A stretch of DNA of 27,661 bases from a virus. Under the pieces are notes generated by a model. The model was given only the letters and a program-made list of their open reading frames with translations. It was not told the origin of the DNA and did no database searches. The DNA lies in IMG/VR virus record IMGVR_UViG_3300047317_000209, positions 1-27,661 of that record. The stretch is one strand, 5' to 3'. Position numbers and translations under genes: made by a program. Below, piece by piece: positions 9,942 through 27,657 of this stretch; the first letter of the stretch is position 1; every line of letters starts with the position of its first letter.

Positions 9942-9944
9942 AGG

Positions 9945-11454: not shown

Positions 11455-11456
11455 AG

Positions 11457-11894: not shown

Positions 11895-11948
11895 GGTCTT
11901 ACCTCTCGTCTACGGTCCTGCCGGGGCGACACTGCCGGCCCAGTGGGA

Positions 11949-11980: not shown

Positions 11981-11986
11981 CGGGGG

Positions 11987-13342: not shown

Positions 13343-13351
13343 GGCTCCTCC

Positions 13352-14428
13352 TCAGGATTCCGTCGCGCTGGACGACGCTGGGCCGGTAGTCAGAACTGCG
13401 AATGCCGCGGCCCACGAATCGGAGCCGGGAGTAGTGAGGGCTGCGAAGGCGTCGGCCCATGAGTCGGGCTCGATCGCCACGAGTTCGGGGCCGTGCTCGC
13501 CACGCATTTCGGCGATTGGTGCCGCCGGCTCCGGAGTCGGGGGGGCGTCCTCCGGGCCGGCGGCGGGCGCCTCGTCCTGCCCCGTCCCCACGGGTTCGGA
13601 CGCGGCGGTCTCAGGGGCGGCCACGGCAGCACGGACGGCTTCGGCGATCTGCTCGCCGATCGCGTCCCCAAGGCTGATCGTCAGGGCGATCGGCGCGGGC
13701 TGCTCCTGCTGCGCCTTCACATGGGGCGGGCCGGGCTTGGGCTGCGCCGGGCCGGCGTACCCGTAGGCGGCAGGGTCGAAGCGGGCGGCCATCTGCTCCG
13801 GCACGTCGTCCTCGGAGGCGCCGCCCGTAGGCAGCGCCACGTCCGCCAGTCCCGCAGCGACGGCGTCCGCCGCCTTGTACCAGGACTCGGCGCGCATGGC
13901 TTCCCGCCACTCGGCCGCTGTCCCGCCGGCTTTCGCGGCGTAGGCGTCGCTGATGTTGTCGCTGATGATGTCGAGGACTTCGGCCATCTTCGCCATCTCA
14001 GCTGAGTCGCCGAGGCACACCCCGGACGCTTCGTGGATCATGAGCATCGACTGGGGGGCCATCTCGATCCGGTCCGCGGCCATAGCGATAACGGAGGCGA
14101 TGCTGGCCGCGAGTCCGTCGACCTGGACGGTGACGTTCGCCGGGTGGGCGCGCAGGGCGTTGGCAATCGCCAGACCCTCGAATACGCTGCCGCCGGGGCT
14201 GTTCACGTGGACCCGCAGGGACGGCGAGGTGACCGCAGACAGGTCGGAGACGAACTGCTCCGCCGTCGCGCCGAACCAGCCCCCTACCTCGTCGTACAAG
14301 TACAGGGCCGCCTCGTCCGCCGAGGTGGCGTTGCGGATGCTGTACCAGTTCCGGGTGTCGCCTGCCTTGGCGCGGACGGTGTTAGCGCGTGCTGCGCCCG
14401 GGGCCTGCGGCACGTTGATCCAGGCCAT
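13352..14428 (-). CDS. ClpP-like (S14) prohead protease, with possible scaffold tail
   Basis: 358 residues from ATG 14428, which overlaps the portal stop (TGATG). Residues about 25-215 form a ClpP-type serine protease: VHVNSPGGSVFEGLAIANAL at 73-92, the nucleophile region DGLAASIASVIAM with Ser109, and MLMIHEASG with His132; the third residue is probably an Asp in the LDIISDNISD stretch or nearby. Residues about 225-358 are Ala/Pro/Glu-rich, with AIGEQIAEAVRAAVAAPETA and a repeated DSWADAFAALTTPG / DSWAAAFAVLTTG at the end. Such a tail could act as fused scaffold, since no scaffold gene is present. Acts in prohead maturation by cleaving capsid and scaffold. Confidence 0.92.
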   Translation of the reverse strand: MAWINVPQAPGAARANTVRAKAGDTRNWYSIRNATSADEAALYLYDEVGGWFGATAEQFVSDLSAVTSPSLRVHVNSPGGSVFEGLAIANALRAHPANVTVQVDGLAASIASVIAMAADRIEMAPQSMLMIHEASGVCLGDSAEMAKMAEVLDIISDNISDAYAAKAGGTAAEWREAMRAESWYKAADAVAAGLADVALPTGGASEDDVPEQMAARFDPAAYGYAGPAQPKPGPPHVKAQQEQPAPIALTISLGDAIGEQIAEAVRAAVAAPETAASEPVGTGQDEAPAAGPEDAPPTPEPAAPIAEMRGEHGPELVAIEPDSWADAFAALTTPGSDSWAAAFAVLTTGPASSSATES

Positions 14429-15933: not shown

Positions 15934-15951
15934 CGGCCCCCCTTTCCCGCG

Positions 15952-16128
15952 CTACCCGTCGCTCTTGGTCCACCAGTGATGGAGGGCCACGAGGCTGATC
16001 CCGCCTGCGATTTCACCCGCACCGGTGCCGCAGATCGTCCCGACTCCAACCGACAGTAGCGCAAATCCTCCTGTCAATAGCGCGATCGACAGGAAATCCT
16101 TCAGTTTTGTGAGCGTCAGCCAGTGCAT
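15952..16128 (-). CDS. Small two-helix membrane protein between TerL and portal (58 aa)
   Basis: A short ORF starting at ATG 16128 behind GAGAGGTCATC and ending with TAG at 15952. It encodes 58 residues, MHWLTLTKLKDFLSIALL..., with two hydrophobic segments at about 13-32 (LSIALLTGGFALLSVGVG) and 36-50 (GAGEIAGGISLVALH) and a charged C-terminus WWTKSDG. Spacing to both neighbours is tight (38 bases after TerL, 18 before portal). The hairpin-like topology and size recall small holin-like or membrane accessory proteins, but no endolysin lies nearby, so function stays unknown. Confidence 0.7.
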   Translation of the reverse strand: MHWLTLTKLKDFLSIALLTGGFALLSVGVGTICGTGAGEIAGGISLVALHHWWTKSDG

Positions 16129-16166
16129 GATGACCTCTCAGTAGTGGTATGGGAGCGCGGCGTAAC

Positions 16167-17504
16167 TCAGACCCAGCGGATCCGGGGCCGGCCACCAACG
16201 TCCAACTCCGCGACCGCGTAGCGCAGGGCGTCCATCCCGTGATCGTTGACCTTCACGGGGGCTTCCTTCGGCGGCTTGTCGTTCGCCTGCTGCTGCGCTG
16301 TACCCCGGTCCCACACGTACCCGGTGATCTCTTCCTCGGTGCAGCACGGCTTCTTCGCCGCATCCAGCTCGACATCCCGCTCAACCAGAGCGCCCCGCAC
16401 CAGGAACAGGCGTGGCTTCCCGTCGCCAGCCGGCTTCAGCCGGGACTGCACAGCCTGGATTCCGTCGGACACGCCCTTGTGCGCGGCCACCGTCGACAGC
16501 CCCAGGTGGCGTTCCAGAGTGGCCCGGTCCTCCGCGTCGTGGTCACAGATGACCGCACGGGGCTTCGGCCCCCGCCAGTTGCCGTGCTCGTCCTTCAACA
16601 CCCGCAGGATGTCCTTCGCATGGTCCTCCACCAGCCGCCCGGACCGGTACAGCTCCCGCGTCAGGTACAACCGCCCGTCCGAATCCTCCAGCCAGAACTG
16701 GACGACGGTCGGGTTGGTGAACCCGAAGTCCACGCTGATCCACAGCGTGCCGCCCTCGGGCACATCCGTCGGCTCGACCACGTGGACAGCCGGGTCGAAG
16801 CTCTCGTACACCAGGCCCTCGGCGGCCACCCACTTGCCCCACCGCATCCGCTGGTACCGCGCCCCCGTGAGGCTGTCCAGGCGGGCAAGGTACGCCTGCC
16901 CGTACTCCGTCCACTCCCCACCCGAGTACAGCCGCGGATTGTCCTCGTGGGTGGAGTACAGGAGGCGACAGCGCCCCGAGTCCGCCCGCTGCTTGATGTG
17001 GTGCGTAGGCGGGCCAGGATTAGTAGCCATGATCAATTGCTGGCGGGAAATCCGCCCATTGCGAAGACGGGTGACGATCGTGTCGAGGTCTTCGGCGGTG
17101 ACCTCGATCGCCTCGTCCACGAAGCACATGTCGTATTCGGTGCTGAGGAGTCGGGTGGCCCGGTCCAGCCCGCCGACGACGATGACCGAACCGTTGGCGT
17201 ACCGGAAGGATGCTGGCTCTTGCGCGGACCCGCCGTAGAAGGACACGACCCCGGCCGTGATCGCCTCTGCCGCAACCTTCTGCCGGAAGGTGACGAGCGT
17301 AGAGGCGGCAAGAGAAGCGTGGGTCTTGCGGACGATGAGCGCGCGGACCCGTGGCGTGTTGAGGCACGTCAAGTGGACCTTCATAAGTGCGCCCACGGAT
17401 TTTCCGGTGCCGGCGGCGCCGCTCAGCAAGATCTCCGGGTCGGACGAGCGAAACAGCTCAAGCGCTGCGCCCCGAGGCTCGTACCGGACCACCGTCTCAG
17501 CCAT
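16167..17504 (-). CDS. Terminase large subunit
   Basis: 445 residues forming the packaging ATPase and nuclease. ATPase domain: Walker A GAAGTGKS at 29-36, Walker B MCFVDE at 126-131 and the coupling motif ATNPG at 160-164. Nuclease domain (RNase H-like): SVDFGFTN with Asp259, VICDHDAED with Asp321/Asp323, and VNDHGMDALRYA with Asp425. These match terminase_6-type large subunits. The start at 17504 overlaps the end of the upstream endonuclease VII-like gene by 8 bases, indicating coupled translation. Partners: the small terminase at 18342-18830 and portal downstream. Confidence 0.96.
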   Translation of the reverse strand: MAETVVRYEPRGAALELFRSSDPEILLSGAAGTGKSVGALMKVHLTCLNTPRVRALIVRKTHASLAASTLVTFRQKVAAEAITAGVVSFYGGSAQEPASFRYANGSVIVVGGLDRATRLLSTEYDMCFVDEAIEVTAEDLDTIVTRLRNGRISRQQLIMATNPGPPTHHIKQRADSGRCRLLYSTHEDNPRLYSGGEWTEYGQAYLARLDSLTGARYQRMRWGKWVAAEGLVYESFDPAVHVVEPTDVPEGGTLWISVDFGFTNPTVVQFWLEDSDGRLYLTRELYRSGRLVEDHAKDILRVLKDEHGNWRGPKPRAVICDHDAEDRATLERHLGLSTVAAHKGVSDGIQAVQSRLKPAGDGKPRLFLVRGALVERDVELDAAKKPCCTEEEITGYVWDRGTAQQQANDKPPKEAPVKVNDHGMDALRYAVAELDVGGRPRIRWV

Positions 17505-18249
17505 GGTGCCTCTCTAGGTAGGCGGCAGCAGCGCGCAGCCGGTCCGATTGATCCTCGAACTTGCCGATGCCCTGGTTGCAGTTGCTGCACAGGAGCCCCC
17601 GGATGCAGCGACCGCACGACCTCGATACGTCAGGGCAGCAGCCGTGGTCATGGTCGACTGCGAGCAGGCGTCCAGTGGAGCACGCCTGTCCGCAGATGGC
17701 GCAGCCCCCGCCTTGGGATTCGAGGAGGCGTTCGTACTGCTCCCAGGTCATGCCGTAGTTCTTGAGCCGGTGCTTGTCGCGGTTGCACTTCCGGCACTGG
17801 TACCCCAGTCCGTCGGGGTTGCGGCTGCTCCGACCAAACTCCGCTTCCGCCACCCACTGCTCACAAGTCCGGCACAGCTTGCGCCCCTCGGCGTCGCGTG
17901 TCGCGTTAGGTCGCCACGCCCGCACCGGTGTCAGAGGCTTGCCCTCGGAGCGCTGGCGGTTGTGCGGCTCGCACAGGCCATGGGCGACCGAGGTTCGCTC
18001 GCAGGTCTCGAACCCGCACTCGCTGGGGACCCTGACCATGGTCCGGAGCGGGTCGCCGTAGAGGTTCCATCGCCGGTAGTGCATGTCGCACCAGCCGCGT
18101 TTCACGGCTGGCTTGTCGCAGTCGTCGATCGAGCAGGGCTTGCGGTTCGGATCCTGTGTCCGCTGCCACTGGTTGTAGTGCCGGGTGCACCGGTCGCGGG
18201 CAATGTGCGGACGATCGCATCCGTCGACTATGCAGGTACGCTGAACCAT
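17497..18249 (-). CDS. Endonuclease VII-like nuclease with zinc repeats (250 aa)
   Basis: ATG 18249 follows GAGAGG with 7 bases spacing; longer frames upstream lack support. Residues 1-100 contain three C-x4-C-x9-C-x2-H repeats (C6/C11/C21/H24, C39/C44/C54/H57, C78/C83/C93/H96). A CXXC...CXXC ribbon follows (126-129, 152-155). The C-terminal domain, about 170-230, is a recombination endonuclease VII fold: CAICG at 183-187, AVDHDHGCC at 198-205, and IRGLLCSNCNQGIG at 217-229. T4 gp49-type enzymes resolve branched DNA before packaging; a homing endonuclease is the alternative. It lies between the two terminase genes and overlaps TerL. Confidence 0.88.
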   Translation of the reverse strand: MVQRTCIVDGCDRPHIARDRCTRHYNQWQRTQDPNRKPCSIDDCDKPAVKRGWCDMHYRRWNLYGDPLRTMVRVPSECGFETCERTSVAHGLCEPHNRQRSEGKPLTPVRAWRPNATRDAEGRKLCRTCEQWVAEAEFGRSSRNPDGLGYQCRKCNRDKHRLKNYGMTWEQYERLLESQGGGCAICGQACSTGRLLAVDHDHGCCPDVSRSCGRCIRGLLCSNCNQGIGKFEDQSDRLRAAAAYLERHHG

Positions 18250-18341
18250 GAGGACGCCTCTCACATAGGTGCTCTCCACGCCCCGGGGGTGTTCCCGCAC
18301 CCGCCGGGGTTCTGTGCCTCCAATTCTACTGTTTTTGCTGG

Positions 18342-18830
18342 TCACTTGAGGCTTTCCGGGTCTACTCCGACGATCTCGTACTTGACCCCGCCGGACATCT
18401 CCATCTTCGCCGGCTGGTCCAAACCGTGCAGCTTGCGGTACGACTCCCGGATCTGCCGCAGCTCCCGCAGCGCCGCCAGCTTCGGCCCGTCGTCGAGGAC
18501 CGGCCGGCCGTCGTCGCCGTACATGACGCGCCCGTTCGACACGGTCGGGTGATCCCGGTCGAGGACGTCCAGGGCGGCCACGTACAGCTCGTCCAGCCGC
18601 GCCGACTCCACCTGGATCAACTCCTCAGCCGGCTCCCGCAGGATCGCCCTGCGCGCCCGCTGAATGCCGCGCCAGGCGTGCCCGCGGTCGTGGTATCCGA
18701 GCGCGTCGGCGATCTGCTGGTACGTCTTACCTTCCGACCGCAGGCGCGATGCGTCGGCGTCACGTTGAACGCTTGCGTTGACGGACAAGAACCCGCCGTT
18801 GCCGTCTCGGGGCTGCTCCTCGTTGCTCAT
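18342..18830 (-). CDS. Terminase small subunit-like DNA-binding protein
   Basis: ATG 18830 follows AAAGGAGGTACAGC, a near perfect site. The 162-residue product has an N-terminal helix-turn-helix (EGKTYQQIADALGYHDRGHA at about 33-52), followed by long charged helices (AEELIQVESARLDELYVAAL, LAALRELRQIRESYRKLHGL) that would form the oligomerisation core, and a C-terminal tail KYEIVGVDPESLK that could contact TerL. The layout of HTH, coiled helices and C-terminal arm agrees with small terminases, and TerL is two genes downstream. It binds the pac/cos region to start packaging. Confidence 0.85.
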   Translation of the reverse strand: MSNEEQPRDGNGGFLSVNASVQRDADASRLRSEGKTYQQIADALGYHDRGHAWRGIQRARRAILREPAEELIQVESARLDELYVAALDVLDRDHPTVSNGRVMYGDDGRPVLDDGPKLAALRELRQIRESYRKLHGLDQPAKMEMSGGVKYEIVGVDPESLK

Positions 18831-18928
18831 GCTGTACCTCCTTTCTGCGTTCCGATCGTCGCATGCATGTCCACATCGGGGGTGATGAGGCATCAGCGGA
18901 GCCGGACGTCCCGATCGAGTGAACAGAC

Positions 18929-18959
18929 GGCCCTGGTACCCGCCACGGGTACCAGGGCC
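18929..18959 (-). terminator. Strong 13-bp hairpin between HNH and TerS genes
   Basis: GGCCCTGGTACCC pairs perfectly with GGGTACCAGGGCC across a 5-base loop. It starts 31 bases after the HNH stop and lies about 100 bases before the terminase start. The minus-strand continuation GTCTGTTCACTCG has only scattered Ts. The position suggests that it ends the HNH or early transcript before the late operon; it could instead be part of the packaging site. Confidence 0.65.
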
Positions 18960-18990
18960 GGCGCAATGACGGATGGGGCCGGATCGTGCC

Positions 18991-19635
18991 TCAGCCGATC
19001 AGTCGGAGCTGAATCTGTCCGCCGATGCCACGTCGTGAGTTGCATCCTCGGTGGGCCAGCGCAAGGTTCGACGCTTCATCGGCGCCTCCCTGCGAGGCCG
19101 GCACGAGGTGGTCCAAGGTGGCCGCATCACGGTGCTGGAAGTGGAGGCCCGGGTCGACAGGACGCTTGCAGAGATGACAGCGCCACCCGTCCCGTAGGCC
19201 GATGTCCTCTACCTTGGGCCGCGGCCCCACGATCACCGCGCCGCGTCGTGCTGCTGCTGCACGGCGATCTTTCGCCCGACGCCGGACTCGTGCACAGGCT
19301 TCACAGAACCGTCCTTCCTGGTTGCGACCGCGGGCTGTCAAGGCGCCGCAGTCGTCGCAAGGAACCGGTTGCGCAGGGGCGTCATTGAGCCGCCGGGCGT
19401 TGTTCCCCATCCGGACGCGTCCGCATTCGACTGAGCAGACACGACTCCTGGGATTGGTGAACTGGGCACCACAGTGGGCACATGAGCGCGGCTCGTACAG
19501 CTCGGGCCGGGAGTACGGCTGAGTCATTTCGCGTCTGCAGGGACGGCACACGGCATTGCCTGTTGGGAGGCTGCCGCGGCCTCTCCACATCAGGGTGCCG
19601 CATCTTGCACAGGGCATATCGGGGTGCCGTGACAT
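18991..19635 (-). CDS. HNH endonuclease adjacent to terminase
   Basis: ATG 19635 follows AAGGAGGGAACGGC; upstream frames are rejected. The 214-residue product has an N-terminal half with several zinc-knuckle pairs (C9/C12, C30/C33, C52/C55, C67/C71, C93/C96, C111/C114) and a C-terminal HNH domain at about 145-205: WRCHLCKRPV, ATLDHLVPASQGG with Asp175/His176, and SNLALAHRGCNSRRG. HNH proteins encoded next to terminase genes are established parts of cos-type packaging machines in HK97-like phages, needed for specific cos cleavage. This gene is directly upstream of TerS, so such a role is likely. Confidence 0.9.
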   Translation of the reverse strand: MSRHPDMPCARCGTLMWRGRGSLPTGNAVCRPCRREMTQPYSRPELYEPRSCAHCGAQFTNPRSRVCSVECGRVRMGNNARRLNDAPAQPVPCDDCGALTARGRNQEGRFCEACARVRRRAKDRRAAAARRGAVIVGPRPKVEDIGLRDGWRCHLCKRPVDPGLHFQHRDAATLDHLVPASQGGADEASNLALAHRGCNSRRGIGGQIQLRLIG

Positions 19636-19772
19636 GCCGTTCCCTCCTTGTTGGCGCCGAGGTCGTCTTGGCGGCGGTTCGGCTCTGAGGGTGACACCGG
19701 GGCCGGACATCGGCCCTTGCCGGTGGGGCGTCCCGTAGAGCTGTGGCAGGCCGGGGACGCCCCTTCGTCACG
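19636..19772 (-). other. Non-coding gap, candidate cos region
   Basis: 137 bases with no supported gene, lying between the early hypothetical gene and the HNH-terminase block. It holds the inverted repeat 19725-19763 and the HNH leader. In cos phages the cohesive end site is typically just upstream of the HNH/terminase genes, so this is the best candidate interval; no actual overhang sequence can be recognised by eye. Confidence 0.4.
19725..19763. repeat. 10-bp inverted repeat
   Basis: GGGGCGTCCC at 19725-19734 and GGGACGCCCC at 19754-19763 are exact reverse complements separated by 19 bases. No T-tract follows on either strand. It could be a terminator for the early transcript or a protein-binding dyad of the packaging region. 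Confidence 0.55.
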
Positions 19773-20090
19773 TCAGGGGGCGGCGCGCAGGACCGGCTGA
19801 GGCCACGTGTCGGGCAGCGGGACAACAAGGGCGGCGATCCGCTCCTCACTGGCCGCGTAGTCGCTACCGGGGTTGGCGTAGCGGTGGCCTTCGGCGTTGA
19901 GCAGGTACACGGTGTACCGGATCAGGTGGCCGCTGCTGCAGGGCTCGATGCTGAGCGTGCTGGTGTCCGGTACTTCATTCGGGTCAATCCCGTTGGCGCG
20001 GAGCCACGCGAGGAGTTCGGCCAGGCGCTGCTCATCGCGGCGGATCGTCGGCCAGATGTTGGCGTCGCTGATGATCTGAACGGGGGTCAC
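19773..20090 (-). CDS. Hypothetical protein (105 aa)
   Basis: GTG 20090 is preceded by GGAGGACTGACC and lies 2 bases after the upstream stop. The 105-residue product has a helical N-terminus (IWPTIRRDEQRLAELLAWLRANGIDPNEVP) and a strand-rich C-terminal half (LIRYTVYLLNAEGHRYANP, RIAALVVPLPDTW). No Cys cluster or membrane segment. The single-copy helix followed by sheet looks like a small DNA-module accessory protein as found in many actinophages, but I do not recognise the family. It is the last gene before the candidate cos region. Confidence 0.78.
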   Translation of the reverse strand: MTPVQIISDANIWPTIRRDEQRLAELLAWLRANGIDPNEVPDTSTLSIEPCSSGHLIRYTVYLLNAEGHRYANPGSDYAASEERIAALVVPLPDTWPQPVLRAAP

Positions 20091-20092
20091 GG

Positions 20093-20758
20093 TCAGTCCT
20101 CCGTGGGGTCGGTGCTGGGGTTGAGCCGCGCGGACAGTTTGGGTGCGAGGACGTAGGCGGGGTGGTCGTCGAGCTGGCGCCGGCGGCGGTAGACCTCGGC
20201 CACGCCGTGAATCGGGTCGACGTAGGGCAGGCGGATGCCGAGAATTTCCGCGGGCGGCCTCTCGCGGTAGCCGCGGAAGAGCCCGTCGTCGTGGGGTTCA
20301 GCGCTGTTGCAGTGCCGGCAGAGCAGGCCGCGGATGATGCCCGTCTCGTGGTCGTGGTCCTTGACGAGGCGCGGGGCGCGCATCCCGCAGACGGCGCACC
20401 GCCGGTCGTGCCAGATCGCGAAGGCCAGACGGAGGGCCGCTTCGTCGCTGTTCTGGATCCGTCGCACGAGGTCTTCGGCAGCGTCCTCTATGCCGGATCC
20501 TTCGTACTCGGCCAGGATGCGGTCCTCAGTGAGGGTCGGATCCCAGGACCAGCAGGCGGGTTCGCGGCTGTCGAGGCGGGCGGCGTGACGGCGCTCTTGC
20601 TCGGCGAACCCGGCGTCCCGGATGTCCCGCAGGTTCACGGGCAGGTGCGTGCCGCAGAGCAGCGGGTTGCCAGGGACGCCTTCGGGCCAGCGGCTGGCGG
20701 TGCCCTTGCAGGGTTTGCGGGCCTTCGTCATGCCGGTGCAGGGCGGCTCGGTGTCCAT
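20093..20758 (-). CDS. Endonuclease VII-like nuclease (221 aa)
   Basis: ATG 20758 follows AAAGGAGAACGGC. Residues 1-40 carry a small Cys/His site (C7, C17, C35, H38) within GMTKARKPCKGTASRW. A helical linker follows (AEDLVRRIQNSDEAALRLAF). The core at 121-151 is endonuclease VII-like: CAVCG, LVKDHDHETG with Asp134/His135/Asp136/His137, and IIRGLLCRHCN. This family resolves Holliday and other branched junctions during phage replication and packaging. It sits directly after the integrase gene. A second member lies between the terminase genes, with different N-terminal zinc modules, so the two are probably not recent copies. Confidence 0.88.
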   Translation of the reverse strand: MDTEPPCTGMTKARKPCKGTASRWPEGVPGNPLLCGTHLPVNLRDIRDAGFAEQERRHAARLDSREPACWSWDPTLTEDRILAEYEGSGIEDAAEDLVRRIQNSDEAALRLAFAIWHDRRCAVCGMRAPRLVKDHDHETGIIRGLLCRHCNSAEPHDDGLFRGYRERPPAEILGIRLPYVDPIHGVAEVYRRRRQLDDHPAYVLAPKLSARLNPSTDPTED

Positions 20759-20775
20759 GCCGTTCTCCTTTGGGT

Positions 20776-21828
20776 TCACAGGCCGATGTCTTCGCTGGCG
20801 GCGTCGGTCCACTTGTCGGCCTCGCGGATGTAGCCCCAGAACGCCGGGCTGTTCTCGGCGTGGCCCGATTGGGCGCGGATCTTCTCCTCGCGCTTCCCGG
20901 CAACTCTCGAGGTGGTGATGAACCCGGCCCGCATGGAGTGCCCGGTGAGGCGCACGGCGATCCCGGCGCGTTCGGCGGACCGGGCGATGACCTCCCGGCA
21001 CGCTTCGGGGGCGAGATGCCCTGTGCCGAGATGGCCCCACTTGTCGATGGCGACGAACGCGGGGCCGCTCGAGACGCCGGCGGCGGACTGCCAGGTGAGC
21101 CAGGACCGGACGGGGCAGGTGTCGGGGCTTTTGCCGTAGGCGACGACGACGTCTCGAGCGGGGCGGCCCTTGACGCTGGGGACGTGGACCTCGAGGCCCT
21201 TGCTCGAGAGGACGATGCCTTCGGCGGTGAGCGCGGCGACTTCGGCGGATCGGCCGGCGATGCCGAAGGCGAGGAGCCAGAGGGCGTGGTCGCGGAGTCC
21301 CGTGAGGCTGTCGGGGACGGCGGCGGCCATCTCGCGGAGTTGGGCGGGCGTGGCAGCGGGGGCTTTTCCTCTGCCGCGGGCGATCCGGTCGGCGTCGGCC
21401 TTGAGGGGCTTGAGGGCTTGGCGGGCGGCGACGGTGGCGGCCTTGGGGACTTCGACGCCTTGGGCTCGAGCGGTGACGGTGACGCCGGTGATGCGGCGGT
21501 CGATGGAGTTGGGTGCGGCGAGCTTGACGGTGTCGAGCCAGACGACGAACCCGACGAGGGTTCCTTTGGTGACGGCGGTGAGCGGCAGGGTGTGGCTGGT
21601 GCGGTCGGAGAGCCAGGCGTGGAACTCTGCCCAGAGGGCCCAGTCGTTGGCGTAGCCGCGTTTTGTGTTGGCGGGGCGGATCCGCTCGAGGTGTTTTTCG
21701 GCTGCCTGCTCCATGGCGTGGAGGACGGCGAGGGTCGCCGGGTCGTAGGTGGTGGGAGCGCTCGAGGAGTGCCCGGGCTCGAGCGACGGGGTGGGGGTGC
21801 GGTCGATGATGCCTGCTGATTGCGACAT
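20776..21828 (-). CDS. Tyrosine recombinase / integrase
   Basis: 350 residues from ATG 21828, nine bases after GAGGA; a TTG three codons earlier is less well spaced. N-terminal core-binding (SAM-like) domain at about 30-140 (NTKRGYANDWALWAEFHAWL). Catalytic domain at 160-350: Arg193 in AGRSAEVAAL, Lys220 in SVKGR, His297 and Arg300 in TGHSMRAGF, His323 in SGHAENS and the nucleophile Tyr333 in FWGYIREADKW. The full R-K-HXXR-H-Y set makes it likely active. It catalyses site-specific recombination between attP and attB, making the element temperate or derived from a temperate phage. The gene holds nine CTCGAG palindromes in three reading frames, unlike the rest of the window. Confidence 0.93.
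   Translation of the reverse strand: MSQSAGIIDRTPTPSLEPGHSSSAPTTYDPATLAVLHAMEQAAEKHLERIRPANTKRGYANDWALWAEFHAWLSDRTSHTLPLTAVTKGTLVGFVVWLDTVKLAAPNSIDRRITGVTVTARAQGVEVPKAATVAARQALKPLKADADRIARGRGKAPAATPAQLREMAAAVPDSLTGLRDHALWLLAFGIAGRSAEVAALTAEGIVLSSKGLEVHVPSVKGRPARDVVVAYGKSPDTCPVRSWLTWQSAAGVSSGPAFVAIDKWGHLGTGHLAPEACREVIARSAERAGIAVRLTGHSMRAGFITTSRVAGKREEKIRAQSGHAENSPAFWGYIREADKWTDAASEDIGL
20906..21783. repeat. Cluster of nine CTCGAG palindromes in the integrase gene
   Basis: CTCGAG begins at about 20906, 21068, 21153, 21190, 21203, 21465, 21685, 21761 and 21778. The copies fall in all three codon phases (for example Leu-Glu, Ser-Arg/Ser-Ser and Ala-Arg contexts), so codon preference does not explain them. 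Six more occur at about 25544, 25762, 25915, 26427, 26487 and 27527. I found none between 1 and 20900. Confidence 0.75.
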
Positions 21829-21879
21829 TCGGGTCAATCCTCACCAGTGATATGGCATGTTATCGGGGGTGGTTGGATG

Positions 21880-22092
21880 TCAGTTCGACGCGTCACCCGA
21901 GGGGTCCGCTCCCGGATCGGGTGGCGAACTGGCATTACTCACTGGATCCGTGGGCGCCTCGGTGCATCCGCAGACCTGTCGCTGGTCGGGCATGGGTGTG
22001 GTGGTCTCGCCTCGCTCGGCCGCGGTGACTTGGTCGGCGAGCTGAGCGCGTTGGGCGTCACTCAGGCAGTCGGGCCAGATGCACTCAGCCAC
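21880..22092 (-). CDS. Small Cys-containing protein (70 aa)
   Basis: GTG 22092 follows GGGGAGGCCGACC and overlaps the upstream stop by 8 bases. The 70 residues begin MAECIWPDCLSDAQRAQLADQ, with a helix at 12-28, a second Cys pair QVCGCTE, and a disordered Pro/Asp/Ser C-terminus. Four Cys (C4, C9 and the CGC pair) could bind one metal. It lies just upstream of the integrase; an excisionase role cannot be claimed because no helix-turn-helix is visible. Confidence 0.7.
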   Translation of the reverse strand: MAECIWPDCLSDAQRAQLADQVTAAERGETTTPMPDQRQVCGCTEAPTDPVSNASSPPDPGADPSGDASN

Positions 22093-22456
22093 GGTCGGCC
22101 TCCCCGGGGGCGGCAGGAGCAGCGGGGACGGTGCAGGTGTCCGTCTCGCGAATCTCGGTACGGATCGGGCGCGGCAGTTCGTAGCGGTCGCGTGCGCGGT
22201 CCGTGCAGGTGTTGAAGCGCAGGCAGTCCAGGGCGATAGCGAGGGACTTGTGCAGGCGTGCGATGTCGCCGGGCGGGTGGGGGCTGGTCCGGTGCAGGCG
22301 GACCGTCCGGGCGGTCAGGGTGATCTCCGTGCCGGCCGCGAAGAACATTGCGGCGGTCTTCGCGATCCGGTCCGGTCGGGTGAAGAAGTCGTCTCCGGGC
22401 CGATGGCGGTCGCTCGGTCGAGGGCAGGTGACGGTCAGTTCCCATTGCTGTCCCAT
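22085..22456 (-). CDS. Hypothetical early protein (123 aa)
   Basis: ATG 22456 follows GGAAGGAAGGAAGACCGCC. The product begins MGQQWELTVTCPRPSDRHRP and includes KTAAMFFAAGTEITLTARTVRLHR and a helix DIARLHKSLAIALDCLRFN, ending in an Ala/Pro-rich tail. One strand-helix-strand unit seems likely. Not recognised. It is in a run of small early genes separated by GC hairpins between the methyltransferase and the integrase. Confidence 0.72.
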   Translation of the reverse strand: MGQQWELTVTCPRPSDRHRPGDDFFTRPDRIAKTAAMFFAAGTEITLTARTVRLHRTSPHPPGDIARLHKSLAIALDCLRFNTCTDRARDRYELPRPIRTEIRETDTCTVPAAPAAPGEADRG

Positions 22457-22473
22457 GGCGGTCTTCCTTCCTT

Positions 22474-22499
22474 CCGGCCCGGCTGGTGGGCCGGGCCGG
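22474..22499 (-). terminator. 10-bp GC hairpin in early region
   Basis: CCGGCCCGGC pairs perfectly with GCCGGGCCGG across a 6-base loop, 14 bases after the stop at 22513 and just upstream of the next Shine-Dalgarno (GGAAGGAAGG). Lacking a T-tract, it may attenuate or stabilise mRNA rather than fully terminate. Confidence 0.5.
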
Positions 22500-22512
22500 G
22501 ACGGGGCGGGGG

Positions 22513-22815
22513 TCAGGCGGGGTCGACGGTGTACGCGGTGGTCTCGCGGACGAGGCGGTACTGCACGGGCGTTCCGTCGGCCCACTGGGGGCGTTGGGTC
22601 CGGGCCGCTTTGAGGCGCTGGAGGGCGGTGGGCCGGTCTGCGTGACGGGCTCCGGCGGGCATCCACTCGCTGCCGTCTTTGATCTCGACGTACCAGCGGT
22701 CGAAGGGCGGCGGGGCCTTGTCGGGCTCAGGCTTCTTCTCGGCGACGCCTTCGCACTCCAGGCCCCAGCCAGCGCAGGGGCAGGTGTCGCAGGGTGGCGG
22801 CGGGCGCTTGCTCAC
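22513..22815 (-). CDS. Hypothetical Cys-rich protein (100 aa)
   Basis: GTG 22815 follows AGGAGGAACCC. The N-terminus MSKRPPPPCDTCPCAGWGLECEG carries four Cys within 13 residues, a likely small metal site. Then come FDRWYVEIKDGSEWMPAGAR and a helix TALQRLKAARTQRPQW, and PVQYRLVRETTAYTVDP, a compact alpha/beta pattern in which a VEIKDG strand, a helix and an YRLVRE strand follow each other. Function unknown. It is flanked on both sides by GC hairpins. Confidence 0.72.
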   Translation of the reverse strand: MSKRPPPPCDTCPCAGWGLECEGVAEKKPEPDKAPPPFDRWYVEIKDGSEWMPAGARHADRPTALQRLKAARTQRPQWADGTPVQYRLVRETTAYTVDPA

Positions 22816-22855
22816 GGGTTCCTCCTGTGTGGTGGGTGTGGCAGGGTCAGGGCGG

Positions 22856-22884
22856 GGGCGGTGCCGGGTCGAACGGCACCGCCC
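22856..22884 (-). terminator. Hairpin after methyltransferase gene
   Basis: GGGCGGTGCC at 22856-22865 pairs perfectly with GGCACCGCCC at 22875-22884 across a 9-base loop. It begins 11 bases past the methyltransferase stop on the minus strand. No T-tract. Likely a transcript end or processing barrier. Confidence 0.55.
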
Positions 22885-22894
22885 TCTTGCGTGG

Positions 22895-24022
22895 TCATGC
22901 GGCTATACGGGCGGTGAGCAGCCGGAGTGCGGCGGTGGCTTGCTGGGGGACGACGCCGTTGCCGAGGGCGTGTAGCTGCTGGTTCCGGGTGAGGTCGGGG
23001 ACGTCGGTGACGTGGCCGGCGGGCAGGCCCATGAGCCATTCGACGAATGCGGGGCTCAGGCGGCGTCGATCGTCAACTGCCCGTGGGGCGGGTCGGCCGG
23101 TGGCGTGCTCCCAGCGGCGGATAGCGGGGGTGAATCGGCCCCACTCGGCAGGAGCAGCCGTGCCGCATCGAGGAGCGTCATCCCGTAGCCCTCGCCGTAG
23201 GGCGTCCCGTCCGGGCGGAAGTTCGCCGTGTTCGTGGAGTCCGAGGCGGCCGGCGTCGGCAGGAGCGGCGCCAGGGAGTTCAGCGACGGCCGGACTGCGG
23301 CGCCCGGACTCGCCGACTGGTTGTTCCCGTAGGGCGTCGCCGTCGGTGTCGGCAGCAGGTGTTCCACCTCGTCTGCCAGCGTCGGGCCGTGCCCGCCGGC
23401 TTTCCGCTTGTCGGGGTGCTGCGAGCCGCCGTTGATCGCGAGTTGCGCTGTCGGCGTCTTGAGCAGTGGCGACGATGAAGAGGCGCTCGCGGCGGTGGGG
23501 AGCGCCGACCTCCGACGCGCGAACAGTGCACCACTCGACATCGAACCCGAGGTCGGCAAGGTCGGCGAGGACGGTGTCGAATCCGCGTCGAAGGTGCCCT
23601 GCGACGTTCTCAAAGATCGCGCGTCGGGGTCGTAGAACGCGAAGGGCGTCTGCGATGTACGGCCAGATGTGGCGCTCATCTTCGATTCCTTTCCGGAGGC
23701 CGGCGTTGGAGAAGGGCTGGCAGGGGTAGCCGCCGCAGACGATGTCGACGGGTTCTACGGCGGCCCAGTCGGTGGTGGTGAGGTCGCCGAGGTTGGGCAC
23801 GGTGGGCCAGTGGTGGGCGAGGATCTTCGAGGCGCCGGGGTCGATGTCGGAGACCCATGCGGTGGTCCCGCCGAAGACGGCTTCGACGGCCATGTCGAGG
23901 CCGCGGTAGCCGGAGCAGAGGGAGCCGATGCGGGGCCCGTCGTCGATGGCGAGTTGGCCAGCGGGGATGGGCGGCTCGGGTTGGGCGAGGAGCGCCGCGG
24001 CGGTGTCGAGGCTGAGGGCCAT
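22895..24022 (-). CDS. C5-cytosine DNA methyltransferase
   Basis: 375 residues from ATG 24022, seven bases after AGGAG; a GTG one codon earlier is possible. Ordered C5-MTase motifs: motif I SLCSGYRGLD at 34-43, motif IV GGYPCQPFSNAG at 97-108 with the catalytic Cys101, motif VI FENV at 137-140, motif VIII HRRERLFIV at 176-184, and motif X LGNGVVPQQA near 353-362. The variable target-recognition region spans about 190-300. It transfers a methyl group from AdoMet to cytosine C5, probably shielding phage DNA from host restriction. No partner endonuclease is adjacent. A second long ORF with its own Shine-Dalgarno lies inside it in another frame. Confidence 0.93.
   Translation of the reverse strand: MALSLDTAAALLAQPEPPIPAGQLAIDDGPRIGSLCSGYRGLDMAVEAVFGGTTAWVSDIDPGASKILAHHWPTVPNLGDLTTTDWAAVEPVDIVCGGYPCQPFSNAGLRKGIEDERHIWPYIADALRVLRPRRAIFENVAGHLRRGFDTVLADLADLGFDVEWCTVRASEVGAPHRRERLFIVATAQDADSATRDQRRLAAPRQAESRRARPDAGRRGGTPAADTDGDALREQPVGESGRRSPAVAELPGAAPADAGRLGLHEHGELPPGRDALRRGLRDDAPRCGTAAPAEWGRFTPAIRRWEHATGRPAPRAVDDRRRLSPAFVEWLMGLPAGHVTDVPDLTRNQQLHALGNGVVPQQATAALRLLTARIAA
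23056..23679 (-). CDS. Nested ORF with LLPTP repeats inside the methyltransferase gene (207 aa)
   Basis: Entirely within the methyltransferase gene, same strand, different frame. ATG 23679 is preceded by AAAGGA with 7 bases spacing, both inside methyltransferase codons. The product opens FAFYDPDARSLRTSQGTF and STPSSPTLPTSGSMSSGAL, then carries spaced repeats LLKTPTA, LLPTPTATPYGNNQ, LLPTPAASD and LLLPSG, with QHPDKRKAGGHGPTLADEVE between the first two. From memory, proteins with such Y-D-P, S-G-S-M and LLPTP landmarks are frequent next to or overlapping phage methylases in actinobacteria; I cannot verify this here. Low-complexity Ser/Pro/Thr could also arise as a shadow of Ala/Arg-rich codons, hence moderate confidence. 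Biochemical role unknown. Confidence 0.6.
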   Translation of the reverse strand: MSATSGRTSQTPFAFYDPDARSLRTSQGTFDADSTPSSPTLPTSGSMSSGALFARRRSALPTAASASSSSPLLKTPTAQLAINGGSQHPDKRKAGGHGPTLADEVEHLLPTPTATPYGNNQSASPGAAVRPSLNSLAPLLPTPAASDSTNTANFRPDGTPYGEGYGMTLLDAARLLLPSGADSPPLSAAGSTPPADPPHGQLTIDAA

Positions 24023-24168
24023 CACGCGTCTCCTGTCGGTTCATCGGTCGATCGGGTTGGCTGGGCGTCTCGCTGCCGCTCTGCGGTGCCGGGGCCCGGT
24101 TCCACGTCGGAGGGGAGTTCGGCGCTCCTAGGGGCCGTTGTGGGCCGTCTCGGGGTCATGGCGTCCAT
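24022..24168 (-). CDS. Possible 48-aa small protein upstream of methyltransferase
   Basis: ATG 24168 to TGA 24022 encodes 48 residues starting MDAMTPRRPTTAPRSAELP, polar and Pro/Arg/Asp-rich, probably unstructured. Its stop overlaps the methyltransferase ATG (TGATG), the coupling used throughout the window, and it fills the only gap between two longer genes. No Shine-Dalgarno is visible before either Met. It may be a leader peptide coupling methyltransferase translation or a chance ORF. Confidence 0.4.
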   Translation of the reverse strand: MDAMTPRRPTTAPRSAELPSDVEPGPGTAERQRDAQPTRSTDEPTGDA

Positions 24169-24196
24169 TCGGGTGAGGGTCGCGGTCGGTGGCGGG

Positions 24197-25114
24197 TCAG
24201 GCGGGGATGGTCGTCTGCGGGTAGGCGCGGTGCCGGAGGTAGACGGGCCAGTAGTCGGGATCGCCGCCCTTCGTGTCGCCGTGGCCGTGGACGGTCTTGC
24301 CGCCCCACGCGGTGTCGCGGGCCCACACGGAGCCGAGCTGCTTCACGAACGGGGCGGTCGCCGTCTCGGCGCAGTTGACGAGGAGGTCTTCGACCCAGGC
24401 GACATCCAGCGGCCGGGCGCCGGAGCCGCTTTCGCCGCCGATGATCAGCCAGTCGATGTCGACGAGGTCCAGGTTGGGCAGGGCACCGATGAGGGGTTCG
24501 GCGGAGATGAACCGCACGGCGGCCGGCGCGGCACGTAGGGCGTCGGCGCGGCGGGTGTACTCCGCGGACTCGATCGAGGTGCCCAGCCACACGTTCGGCA
24601 GGGGCCACCCGGAGCGGTGGTAGATGCCGTGCTCCAGGCCCGGGACGTAGGTCGGGCTGTGCGAGGTGGCGGCCCACTCCATGTCGGACCGGAAGTGCTC
24701 GCCGGGCGGGTGGCCGACGCCGCAGGTGCACAGGTCTCGCAGGATGCGGGCGGCGCGCTCGGGTCGCTTGGTGAGGATCTGGTAGGTGTGCTGCGGGGTG
24801 GCGGCCATGACGGCGAAGACCTGGGCCAGGAACTCCCGCGGGACGCGGGCGTGGAACAGGTCGCTCATCGAGTTCACGAAGACCCGACGCGGCTTCTTCC
24901 AGCGCAGCGGCTCGGTGAGCACGTCACCGTGGACGGTCAGGCCGAAGCCCGGGCCGGACGTGACGGGGTTGCCGTCGTTCTGGTACTTCGCGGATCCCAT
25001 GCCCTTGAGGCGGCGGGCCATGGTCAGGGCGTAGCAGTTGTCGCATCCGGGGCTGATTCGGTCGCAGCCGGTGGTGGGGTTCCAGGTCTGGTCGGTCCAC
25101 TGGATGGCGGTCAT
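24197..25114 (-). CDS. Phage Gp37/Gp68 family protein (DUF5131-like), CX6CX2C motif
   Basis: 305 residues opening MTAIQWTDQTWNPTTGCDRI with Cys17, Cys24 and Cys27 in TGCDRISPGCDNCY, the hallmark of the Gp37/Gp68 family in actinophages and related bacterial proteins. Further family landmarks: VFVNSMSDLFHARVP, YQILTKRPERA, NVWLGTSIES, AVRFISAEPLIG, IDWLIIGGESGSGARP and FVKQLGS near the C-terminus. Those line up with a TIM-barrel-like layout and a three-Cys site that may hold an iron-sulfur cluster, as in radical SAM-like enzymes; activity is not established. Start ATG 25114 follows AAAGGAACCCGAC. It lies just upstream of the methyltransferase block. Confidence 0.9.
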   Translation of the reverse strand: MTAIQWTDQTWNPTTGCDRISPGCDNCYALTMARRLKGMGSAKYQNDGNPVTSGPGFGLTVHGDVLTEPLRWKKPRRVFVNSMSDLFHARVPREFLAQVFAVMAATPQHTYQILTKRPERAARILRDLCTCGVGHPPGEHFRSDMEWAATSHSPTYVPGLEHGIYHRSGWPLPNVWLGTSIESAEYTRRADALRAAPAAVRFISAEPLIGALPNLDLVDIDWLIIGGESGSGARPLDVAWVEDLLVNCAETATAPFVKQLGSVWARDTAWGGKTVHGHGDTKGGDPDYWPVYLRHRAYPQTTIPA

Positions 25115-25139
25115 GTCGGGTTCCTTTCGGGGTGGCGGG

Positions 25140-25322
25140 TCAGGCGAGGTCGCGGAGTTCGGGCTGTATGCCGAAGTCCTGGTAGGCGGCGGCGGACCGC
25201 CGGGTGGTCCACGTGTGGCCGCAGGACGGGCACCTGTACGTCTCGGTGGCCTGCTCGTCGTCGGAGCGGCTGAGGATCGGCTCGTTGGGGCCGGCGCAGC
25301 ATCCGGGGCAGTTGTCGGTCAC
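25140..25322 (-). CDS. Zinc-ribbon protein (60 aa)
   Basis: GTG 25322 overlaps the upstream stop (GTGA); a longer start at 25355 would overlap that gene by 36 bases and is less likely. Two CXXC-type knuckles are present, DNCPGCCAG near residues 3-8 and RCPSCGHTWTTRR in the middle, typical of a TFIIS/RPB9-like zinc ribbon, followed by a short helix AAAYQDFGIQPEL. May bind DNA, RNA or polymerase; specific role unknown. Confidence 0.75.
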   Translation of the reverse strand: MTDNCPGCCAGPNEPILSRSDDEQATETYRCPSCGHTWTTRRSAAAYQDFGIQPELRDLA

Positions 25323-25564
25323 GGCGCGCTCCCGGGCGGGTGGTTGAGGGCGCATTCGCAGTCGGGGTCGCAGGTGTTCGGTCCGGCCGGTCGGGTGCCG
25401 GCGGGCCAGGCTCCGGGCCGGTGGCCGGGCCCGAAGGAGATGGGTTCGGGCTTCGCCTTGGCGGGCTCGGGCGGCGGGGGGCCGCCGACGAGGGAGCGCA
25501 GGTACTCGGCGAAGTCGCCCTGCTTCCGTAACGCGGCGATGTCCTCGAGGCTGAGTTCCGGCAT
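25319..25564 (-). CDS. Hypothetical protein downstream of helicase (81 aa)
   Basis: ATG 25564 lies one base after the helicase stop. The product begins MPELSLEDIAALRKQGDFAE, a helix continuing YLRSLVGG, then a disordered Pro/Lys-rich stretch (PPPEPAKAKPEPISFG) and a Cys-bearing end NTCDPDCECALNHPP. The longer frame upstream would overlap the helicase and has no advantage. The helix plus flexible linker plus Cys tail may be a helicase or replication accessory, by position only. Confidence 0.7.
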   Translation of the reverse strand: MPELSLEDIAALRKQGDFAEYLRSLVGGPPPPEPAKAKPEPISFGPGHRPGAWPAGTRPAGPNTCDPDCECALNHPPGSAP

Positions 25565-25565
25565 G

Positions 25566-26912
25566 TCAGTAGCCCCCTGCCATGGAGCGCAGACGCGCAA
25601 AATGACCTTGGAAGGAAAGCGGGATCACCCTTCCGGTGGCTCCGTTGCGGTTCTTCGCCACGATCAGGTCGACTTCGCCAGCCCGGTTCGTTGTGTCGGA
25701 GCCGTCTTCGGCGAGGGGCCGGTGCATCAGGATGATCACGTTCGAGTCCTGCTCGATGGCGCTCGAGTCCTTGAAGTCCGTGACGACGGGCAGCCGTCCG
25801 GCGGCGCCGCGGTTGAACTGGGCGAGGGCGACGACGGGGATCTCGAACTCCATCGCGAGGAGCTTCAGCCCGCGGGAGAGGGCGGCGACTTCAGTGGCCC
25901 GGTTGGTGGTGCTGCTCGAGCCTTCGGGAGTGAGGAGCTGGAGGTAGTCGGCGACGACCATGGCGGGCGCTTCGCCGCGGCTGGCCATCCACCGGACTCG
26001 GGACCGGATCTTCGACAGGGACAGGTTCGGGGAGTCGTCGAGGATGAAGTTGTGGGCGTTCTGGAGCCGGTCCGACGCGCCGATGATCTTCTGCCAGTCG
26101 TGGTCGGTGAGCTGGCGGCGGATCAGGTGGTCGAGCTCGACCGAGGCTTCGGCGGCGGTGAGGCGGGCCATGAGCTCGGAGCCGCCCATCTCCATGGACG
26201 CGACCAACACGGGGCGGGCGCGGGTGAGGGCGATGTACCCGGCAAGGTTCAGGCCGAACAGGGACTTGCCGCCGGAGGTGGCGGCGCCGACGGTGATGAG
26301 CTGGCCGGGCTTGAACTCGATGACTTCGTTGACGTCGTGCCACGGCGTGTTGAGAGCCCGGGGGTCGGCGCCGGCTTGGAGTTCGTCGAGGAACCCTGCC
26401 CACCGGTCGCCGACGGACAGCTTCACCTCGAGTGCGGACCGGCCGGAGCCGGCGCCCTGGAGTTCGGCCATGGCGTCGTCGAGGATCTCGAGGGCTTCGC
26501 CTTGGGCTCCGTGGGCGCGTTGGATGGCGCGGGTCGCGGATTCGATGACGCGCCGCAGGGTGGCCTTGTCGTGGACGATCTCGGCGTAGTGCTCGGCGCT
26601 CGCTGCGACGGGCACCGCGTTGACGAGGGTCGTCAGGTACAGGGCGCCACCGATGCGGGTCAGGTCGCCGTTCTTGCTGAGTTCGTCGCCGACGGTCAGG
26701 TTGTCGATGCGGGGTTCGCGGGACCGTCCGTAGAGGTCGCGGATGGCGAGGAAGATCGTGGTGTGGGCGGGGCGGTAGAAGTCGCCGGGGTCGACGGTTG
26801 CGAGGACGCGGTCGATGACGGCGGCGGAGAGCATCATCGCGCCGAGGACTGCTTGTTCGGCTTCGGTGTTGTGCGGGGGCTGGCGTTCGAAGTCGGCGGC
26901 GTCGGTGGTCAT
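25566..26912 (-). CDS. dnaB: DnaB-type replicative DNA helicase
   Basis: 448 residues. N-terminal DnaB domain at about 12-125 (PPHNTEAEQAVLGAMMLS, DFYRPAHTTIFLAIRDLY, LYLTTLVNAVP), a linker, then the RecA-like motor at 185-448: Walker A GAATSGGKS at 209-217, VASMEMGGSELMAR at 237-250, Walker B-type MVVADYLQLL at 318-327, AQFNRG at 364-369, and DSSAIEQDSNVIILMHRP near 382-399. These match the hexameric 5'-3' helicase that opens the phage replication fork. Overlaps the upstream gene by ATGA. No primase or polymerase is visible here, so other replication genes must lie to the right or be supplied by the host. Confidence 0.95.
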   Translation of the reverse strand: MTTDAADFERQPPHNTEAEQAVLGAMMLSAAVIDRVLATVDPGDFYRPAHTTIFLAIRDLYGRSREPRIDNLTVGDELSKNGDLTRIGGALYLTTLVNAVPVAASAEHYAEIVHDKATLRRVIESATRAIQRAHGAQGEALEILDDAMAELQGAGSGRSALEVKLSVGDRWAGFLDELQAGADPRALNTPWHDVNEVIEFKPGQLITVGAATSGGKSLFGLNLAGYIALTRARPVLVASMEMGGSELMARLTAAEASVELDHLIRRQLTDHDWQKIIGASDRLQNAHNFILDDSPNLSLSKIRSRVRWMASRGEAPAMVVADYLQLLTPEGSSSTTNRATEVAALSRGLKLLAMEFEIPVVALAQFNRGAAGRLPVVTDFKDSSAIEQDSNVIILMHRPLAEDGSDTTNRAGEVDLIVAKNRNGATGRVIPLSFQGHFARLRSMAGGY

Positions 26913-27304
26913 GCGGTGGTCTCCCTGGTTCGGGCTTGCTCGTAGCGGTGGCGGGCCGCGATGAACGCTTCGTCGGTGCCGCCCCGGTCGGGGTGGGCGT
27001 CAGCCATGGCCGTCCAGAGGTCGGCGAGGCTGGGCGCCTTGTGCTGCTCGATGGCGGGCGGGTTCAGGTAGACCGTCAGGTCCGGCTCCCACCAGCCGCC
27101 GCGCTTCCGCAGGACTTTGCCGTCGGTTTCGAGGCGGTGTCGGTCCACGAACCGGGTCCAGCCCTTGATCTCGTAATAGACGCGTTTGGGTGTCTTCTTC
27201 ACGACGCGGAACTTCACGACGTGCGGCGCTCGGTAGAACCGGGTGTCATCGGACACGGTGCTGTCGATGCCGTAGACGAACTCGACGAGTGCGGGGGCGG
27301 TCAT
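26909..27304 (-). CDS. J-domain-like protein upstream of helicase (131 aa)
   Basis: ATG 27304 overlaps the upstream stop as ATGA; the longer frame to 27487 only runs over the previous gene. Residues 1-85 form a beta-rich domain (FRVVKKTPKRVYYEIKGW, RFVDRHRLETDGKVL). The C-terminal 40 residues, SLADLWTAMADAHPDRGGTD followed by FIAARHRYEQART, match J-domain helix II, the HPD loop (His104-Pro105-Asp106) and helix III, with the shortened helix I often seen in phage and viral J-like modules. J domains recruit and stimulate Hsp70/DnaK. Directly upstream of the DnaB-type helicase, so a chaperone-assisted replisome step is a possible role (inference). Confidence 0.78.
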   Translation of the reverse strand: MTAPALVEFVYGIDSTVSDDTRFYRAPHVVKFRVVKKTPKRVYYEIKGWTRFVDRHRLETDGKVLRKRGGWWEPDLTVYLNPPAIEQHKAPSLADLWTAMADAHPDRGGTDEAFIAARHRYEQARTRETTA

Positions 27305-27657
27305 GCTGCAGCTGCCTTTCGTTTGGGGTGGCAGTTGGGGCAGGGCTGGGAGTAGCGGAGGCCCTTGTCGTCCTCGACATCGCGGGTCCGGGTGACCGGG
27401 TCGCAGTACGGGTCCTCGCACCAAGCGGGCTTCTCGGCCGCTTGAGGCGGCGGAGGCGCGGTGCTCTTGGGTGGCAGGCCACGCCAACCGCCGCGGAGGA
27501 AGAACGTGGCGTAGCGCACGGGCTGCCTCGAGGAGGCGGCGGTGTCCTTCGCGAAGCTGACCATCGCCGGGGCTCCGGCTCGGTCAACGATGCTGGCGAT
27601 GTCGTGCCAGTCCTTCGGCTGCATCGACCAGCTGACGGTGATCCCGGCTTCGGTCAT
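27301..27657 (-). CDS. Hypothetical Cys-rich protein (118 aa)
   Basis: ATG 27657 is near the right edge and no ribosome site can be judged. The product starts MTEAGITVSWSMQPKDWHDI, with the helix IASIVDRAGAPAMVSFAKDT and YATFFLRGGWRGLPPKST, then a Cys-rich tail: WCEDPYCDPVTRTRD and QPCPNCHPKRK, likely one zinc site (C-x5-C and CPNC). It is the first gene of the visible operon and overlaps the J-like gene by ATGA. Function unknown; zinc binding and a basic C-terminus would suit nucleic-acid contact. Confidence 0.75.
   Translation of the reverse strand: MTEAGITVSWSMQPKDWHDIASIVDRAGAPAMVSFAKDTAASSRQPVRYATFFLRGGWRGLPPKSTAPPPPQAAEKPAWCEDPYCDPVTRTRDVEDDKGLRYSQPCPNCHPKRKAAAA

Follow-up and report, generated by a model that had tools for sequence, protein, structure and literature searches.

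The window (the whole 27,661-nt stretch of phage DNA analysed here) carries, to the right of a long stretch of left-hand genes, a recombinase gene hereafter called int, a C5 cytosine methyltransferase gene, a DUF5131 gene and a DnaB-like helicase gene, dnaB (Table 1). An exact count gives 15 copies of the palindrome CTCGAG in the window. This total is ordinary, since dinucleotide shuffles gave 12.5 +/- 3.4 copies and 28 of 100 shuffles reached at least 15; the anomaly is the placement of CTCGAG, not its total number. All 15 copies lie within the last 6.76 kb (P = 6.6e-10 under random placement, a post hoc value), and the first 20,905 nt hold none against 8.8 expected under a Markov model. With the protein fixed, the left-hand genes tested had 0 sites against 6.3 expected from the codon null (P = 0.001). 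The C5-methylase and DUF5131 genes are site-free as well, and the sites therefore form two clusters rather than one rich half.

Table 1. Features of the window and positions of its CTCGAG sites.
Feature	Position	Strand	Remarks
CTCGAG-free stretch	1..20905	.	tail, head, portal, terminase, HNH and endonuclease VII genes
Predicted Cre-like tyrosine recombinase ('integrase') gene, 353 aa	20776..21837	-	all nine first-cluster sites lie here
CTCGAG	20906..20911	.	phase 2 (ACC TCG AGA); in 4/5 other array ints; alignment column 950
CTCGAG	21068..21073	.	phase 2; also in L005, L009, L010; column 788
CTCGAG	21153..21158	.	phase 1 (GCT CGA GAC, uncommon codons); 6/6 array ints; column 703
CTCGAG	21190..21195	.	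phase 0; 6/6 array ints; column 666
CTCGAG	21203..21208	.	phase 2; 5/6 array ints; column 653
CTCGAG	21465..21470	.	phase 1 (GCT CGA GCC); 6/6 array ints; column 388
CTCGAG	21685..21690	.	phase 0; window int alone; column 168
CTCGAG	21761..21766	.	phase 2; window int alone; column 92
CTCGAG	21778..21783	.	phase 0; window int alone; column 75
C5 cytosine methyltransferase gene	22895..24025	-	PF00145 1.8e-34, TIGR00675; without CTCGAG
CTCGAG	25544..25549	.	Leu-Glu codons, small ORF 25319-25600 after dnaB
DnaB-like replicative helicase gene	25566..26912	-	DnaB_C 4e-60; CTCGAG at 25762, 25915, 26427, 26487
CTCGAG	27527..27532	.	within ORF 27301-27657

A preliminary description of this DNA had correctly reported the absence of CTCGAG over the first 20.9 kb, nine sites at the integrase gene followed by six from 25544 to 27532, and pairs only 13 and 17 bases apart. 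Its chance rate of one site per 3 kb was slightly low, the shuffles giving one per 2.2 kb. It had also described the copies as lying in all codon phases and as a signal at the DNA level. Both statements agree with our data for int, in which three sites fall in phase 0, two in phase 1 and four in phase 2, and in which the excess persists with the protein fixed: nine sites against 1.4 expected with right-hand codon usage (reached in 0 of 1000 trials), or against 2.05 from permutation inside the gene (reached in 0 of 5000).

The int product matches the phrog_216 integrases (4e-9); its matches to PF00589 (1.9e-4) and XerC (1.5e-5) fall just under the Pfam gathering score and likewise under the cut-off, respectively. 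GC by codon position is 0.67/0.56/0.88, and codon-position composition together with homology rules out an overlapping 583-aa ORF and plus-strand ORFs as the integrase. A structural model of the homologous L006 Int (mean pLDDT 62) had Cre as its best Foldseek match in the PDB (E 5e-7, probability 1.00, TM 0.3), so that in a low-confidence prediction the recombinase resembles Cre. Residues R181, H285, R288, H311 and Y321 of L006 Int, within the motifs GRSAEV, TGHSMRAG, SGHAENSP and WGYIREADKW, are invariant among 23 aligned homologues and fit the tyrosine-recombinase pattern Arg ... His-x-x-Arg ... Tyr, their roles being assigned by analogy.

In the window (20093-21837) int is paired with an endonuclease VII gene, as it is in Streptomyces phage pZL12 (GQ919031), where a homologous recombinase (40% identity) is likewise followed by an endonuclease VII gene; unlike int, however, the pZL12 recombinase gene has no CTCGAG, and 19 copies are scattered over 90 kb. 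The DUF5131 gene (24197-25114) adjoins the C5 methylase gene, belongs to phrog_2045 and weakly matches a radical-SAM mobile pair protein. From 20000 to 27661, plus-strand GC skew, near 0 before, climbs to about +0.2 at 20-21 kb, and the right-hand part prefers other codons, with CTC over CTG and more GAA. The skew and the codon shift indicate a different compositional history for the right-hand part of the window.

Integrase genes with and without arrays

A protein-similarity search blind to CTCGAG provided 55 usable integrase homologues of 62-84% identity. In 50 of the 55, int has no CTCGAG, while the remaining five carry 8-12 copies (L005, 8; L006, 9; L009, 12; L010, 12; L061, 9), and no intermediate counts were met among the homologues examined. 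The preliminary description had named in advance related integrase genes without the sites as evidence against a signal. Most relatives (50/55) do lack them, but the counts have two peaks, at 0 and at 8-12, and the array is the more striking for it. Further int homologues, some from a second scan and others from genomes of the genus and order around G031, likewise had 0 CTCGAG in the matched int, and no array int was found in the Streptomyces-related genomes searched; G031 itself, which bears chaplins, is taken to be a Streptomyces.

A branch with support of 100/99 splits the array ints from the rest in the tree; the window int's own place within the array group is weak (68/63). By this phylogeny the five array homologues and the window form one group, and the six array ints, being related, represent a single evolutionary origin sampled several times, not six independent ones. 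The five relatives are metagenome contigs, several of them fragmentary. Every CTCGAG of G002 (12/12 in 46 kb), G003 (12/12 in 19 kb) and G004 (9/9 in 28 kb) lies inside int; the 70-kb G001 has 9 of its 28 copies in int and 10 in a stretch where its own DnaB-like gene is situated. In the records compared, several of which are fragments, int is the sole gene common to all array phages, and no tRNA attachment site was found near the array ints. The array phages are a small family of soil phages whose hosts are probably Streptomyces and its kin.

With each relative the window int has 4-6 site positions in common; it is without five of the others' consensus sites and has three of its own. The finding was chosen for its striking look, and the relatives' extra sites, their conservation and the otherwise empty contigs are evidence from outside that choice.

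Exactness and retention of the int sites

When codons were shuffled among synonymous positions, the six array ints together had 59 CTCGAG against 5.8 expected (z 27), and the 8-12 copies per gene compare with about 0.8 under neutrality. One-mismatch neighbours of the hexamer showed no clear excess, the largest being that of CTCAAG (12 vs 6.5), and some were depleted (GTCGAG 0 vs 4.7, CTCGCG 0 vs 4.7, CTCGAA 0 vs 2.9). The 49 other ints tested had 0 CTCGAG where 16 were expected. In a calibration over 5,238 genes, drawn from the fetched loci, and 64 palindromes, the five array ints took ranks 1-5 (z 9.6-15.2), and the runners-up, from loci not chosen for CTCGAG, reached z of about 6. The exact counts, the protein-fixed nulls and this calibration rule out chance.

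At 32 of 66 bases the hexamers depart from the non-array consensus, whereas such differences affect 29% of the flanking six bases and 8.1% of the remaining gene; from the flank figure, the sites sit in faster-changing parts of the gene. Ten of the 11 consensus sites are 2-4 changes away from the non-array consensus, and the residue is changed in 13 of 32 site codons, as opposed to 27 of about 303 elsewhere. Among the five array relatives, 82% of third positions at sites are invariant, as opposed to 48% elsewhere, and when the genes are compared in pairs CTCGAG is retained in 75% of cases and other hexamers in 45%. Codons beside the sites vary while the site stays constant, AGC, TCC or GCC standing ahead of the same TCG AGC. 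Judged from these alignments, the array was built mostly by gain, through multi-base, amino-acid-changing substitutions, and was then retained. Its site number is steady (8-12) while positions turn over, which is the signature of a recognition-site cluster.

Codon bias predicts sites in phase 0, yet 10 of the 11 consensus sites are in phases 1 and 2 and a single one is in phase 0, which argues against an origin in codon usage. Codon or dipeptide bias is ruled out by this position mainly off phase 0 and by the excess over synonymous shuffles, and tandem or dispersed repeats by the flanks of the copies, whose mean identity is 0.26-0.31 against 0.25 for random sequence. Nor does every int have an enriched palindrome of its own: none of the 49 other ints has a comparable excess, and CGGCCG in the L047 and L050 ints is ordinary for their GC. 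Restriction avoidance alone demands that no sites exceed the neutral number, and is ruled out by the total over the six homologues. On comparative grounds, the int array is a selected DNA signal and not the result of drift, codon bias, repeats or mRNA folding.

The dnaB cluster is weaker than the int array. With the protein fixed, the window dnaB has four CTCGAG against 0.9 expected (P = 0.003), or 0.62 by within-gene permutation, and three of its four sites are in common with L082 dnaB. Several relatives carry CTCGAG at a Leu-Glu codon pair just downstream of dnaB; this conserved copy was ruled out as a functional site, being merely that codon pair. Sites confined to dnaB in other phages (6 of 7 in the 48-kb G208, the seventh lying just downstream, and 6 of 8 in the 98.7-kb G209) are mostly Leu-Glu pairs, about 2-6 fold over synonymous shuffles, and close homologues are without any. 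The dnaB cluster may reflect only relaxed avoidance, with at most weak selection.

Relaxed avoidance has also been considered for int, on the idea that int and dnaB come from a background without counter-selection of CTCGAG and that their sites are neutral leftovers. The Leu-Glu character and modest excess of dnaB sites in relatives are in its favour, as are the four sites, all Leu-Glu codons in phase 0, of an ORF resembling D12-class adenine methyltransferases (L306:12113-12328, equal to G206:52113-52328), and the existence of IMG/VR phages with at least 4 CTCGAG per kb. The int sites, however, far exceed the neutral number, lie mainly off phase 0 and are more conserved than their surroundings, and array ints were found only in CTCGAG-poor phages and in none of the CTCGAG-rich ones. 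As an account of int, relaxed avoidance is largely refuted, and we hold it to be improbable.

Candidate readers of the array

The int gene probably carries a DNA signal for a putative CTCGAG-specific protein. The preliminary description had suggested the phage's own methyltransferase as reader, and this was not borne out: the C5 methylase encoded between the two clusters of the window was not found in the other five array-phage records (some of them fragments) and is not supported as reader, and the six array-phage records (several of them fragments) yielded no PaeR7I/XhoI-type methylase. A second suggestion, selection against the sites of a host XhoI-type enzyme in the late half but not in a recently acquired early half, survives in part. 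Outside the clusters this phage does avoid CTCGAG, as do many relatives, in agreement with XhoI-type restriction by hosts, but a recently acquired early half without avoidance is insufficient, because int holds about 10 times the neutral number of exact sites, which are better conserved, with none elsewhere. The third, a binding array for a regulator or recombination protein, is a possible reading of the int sites.

An XhoI-family endonuclease (PF04555) is present in 20 of 392 genomes (about 5%) of the Streptomyces-like genus around G031, and at one inspected locus the adjacent gene is methylase-like with an NPPY motif. As the array phages have no gene but int in common and no XhoI-type methylase, the reader probably comes from the host, unless it is Int.

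We tentatively favour, with a probability of roughly 0.4, the reading that the array of exact six-base palindromes is selected and is read by a putative host-borne CTCGAG-specific protein that conditions int. A putative symmetric dimer recognising CTCGAG would act on the int gene via the array. This reader would most likely come from the host, because the array phages are without any other common gene, and the best candidate would be a CTCGAG-specific modification enzyme of an XhoI/PaeR7I-type system or a site-binding protein. The state of int, and hence integration or recombination, would be set by the host's CTCGAG-specific activity, and avoidance of CTCGAG elsewhere in phages would be an outcome of the same widespread XhoI-type enzymes. 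That the recombinase gene doubles as a recognition array, making integration or recombination conditional on the modification state of the host, is in our estimate rather unlikely. Several points count against the favoured reading: a 12-site gene should carry a cost in a restricting host, the Streptomyces-related genomes searched yielded no array int, and no helical phasing of the int sites was detected. A common phage-borne reader may also be hidden, several contigs being fragments.

Phages are known to avoid restriction sites; here one gene gained many exact restriction palindromes and paid for them in altered residues, in phages that avoid CTCGAG elsewhere. The int array is a rare clean example of strong DNA-level selection within a protein-coding gene, and it predicts a new reader protein, possibly linking host modification systems with phage integration. 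If the favoured reading is true, the phage exploits as a signal a restriction site that its relatives avoid. To our knowledge, no described system has an in-gene array of a restriction palindrome within a recombinase gene, and we found no precedent in the literature on CTCGAG, XhoI or PaeR7I with Streptomyces phages.

Decidedly improbable, in our view, is a packaging or processing site within coding sequence, like the methylation-controlled, GATC-bearing pac of phage P1. That site consists of clustered short palindrome-bearing hexamers within coding sequence, with a sequence-specific reader and control by adenine methylation, and P1 combines Cre with headful packaging. The int array resembles it in its clustered hexamers inside coding sequence, and P1 also has Cre, the top fold match of our low-confidence model; moreover, among named phages the closest one with this recombinase, pZL12, encodes ParA/ParB in the manner of a phage-plasmid, and the terminase-like contig L176 has a CTCGAG array of its own. 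Unlike pac, however, the array is of CTCGAG and occupies about 0.6-0.9 kb of the recombinase gene itself. No terminase, methylase or other gene common to the array phages was found, the pac-like combination of a shared small terminase with packaging genes near the array is absent from them, and in G001 a terminase-like ORF is about 25 kb away from int. A packaging site in int would be a variant of the P1 pac kind, for which a passage of PMC4190342, citing Sternberg and Coulby 1990, states that packaging requires GATC methylation.

We give just as little credit to the idea that the Int protein binds CTCGAG in its own gene, for autoregulation or synapsis, array and reader travelling together. 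Int is the only gene common to all array phages and Cre-like enzymes bind inverted repeats, but array and non-array ints have 40 consensus differences, few of which fall in the first half of the protein, the half with the core-binding domain, while the non-array ints are site-free, and known core sites are longer than a bare 6-bp palindrome.

It is very improbable that the array is a restriction switch, by which a host XhoI-type enzyme would cut unmodified phage DNA only in int and so disable integration, the compatible ends being rejoinable. The three phages with every CTCGAG in int and the frequency of XhoI-type nucleases in the searched genus agree with such a switch, but a phage would always be safer with no site than with 12, and the gain of extra sites is left unexplained. 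An mRNA signal (CUCGAG), for instance a nuclease site or copy-copy pairing, would suit the limitation of the array to one coding sequence but can hardly be entertained, since array mRNAs have the folding energies of their synonymous shuffles (z -0.8 to +0.9) and only 1-3 site-site stems each, and an exact palindrome is expected for double-stranded DNA.

Three other known systems bear comparison. Avoidance of Type II restriction sites by phages is alike in that most of the window and several relatives lack CTCGAG (0 copies in the 70-82 kb records G211, G214, G219 and G007) and in that candidate hosts have XhoI-type enzymes; it is unlike in that avoidance removes sites, whereas int holds about tenfold the neutral number. 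In the GATC clusters of SeqA/Dam and at the targets of the sequence-selective silencers Rok, H-NS and Lsr2, clustered short motifs, some of which are methylated, bring proteins to a gene or an origin; they share motif clustering with the int array but their motif is not CTCGAG. The stoperators of cluster A mycobacteriophages are asymmetric, genome-wide and bound by the phage repressor (PMC9283540). They too recur many times as short recognition sites within a single actinobacterial phage, but the int sites differ in being palindromic and restricted to one gene.

Other palindrome clusters and biases

When 84,980 genomes were scanned for a three-site pattern, the matches listed came from Sorangium, MAGs and others, and none had the integrase. 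Among the matches listed in a pattern scan of a huge collection, L486 has 12 CTCGAG in 440 bp (8537-8979; 12 vs 2.5 expected), in all phases and with none elsewhere in its 10.8 kb; they lie in a primase/VapE-like gene, in the AEP-primase part, and the N-terminal part of this gene is 66% identical to phage BcepC6B. L464, also among the matches listed, has nine CTCGAG in all phases (2921-3624) and none elsewhere in 5.9 kb, wholly inside an intein that carries a LAGLIDADG homing endonuclease and is part of a terminase gene; likewise among these matches, L176 has six in 160 bp (5412-5569) of a terminase large subunit gene and none elsewhere in 6.8 kb. The L464 and L176 arrays could be extremes of chance in a huge collection.

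All nine CTCGAG of a 73-kb phage record lie within 3.3 kb near the record end (L303, G217:62187-65527), in a stretch with HTH regulators and a second integrase-like gene. Dense clusters of other palindromes in L071 (GATATC), L051 (CGATCG), L103 (GGTACC), L179, L254 and L282 resemble repeats or repetitive proteins. Downstream of the L040 int, 560 bp (3710-4266) of a region beginning with a LexA-like HTH ORF hold eight GGCGCC, a palindrome otherwise avoided in these ints; this is possibly an array of another palindrome, its per-gene excess being weak. Besides CTCGAG, the 49 non-array ints under-represent several palindromes relative to synonymous shuffles: GAATTC (1 vs 21), CGTACG (0 vs 10), GGCGCC (3 vs 20) and, likewise strongly, CCGCGG and GCCGGC.
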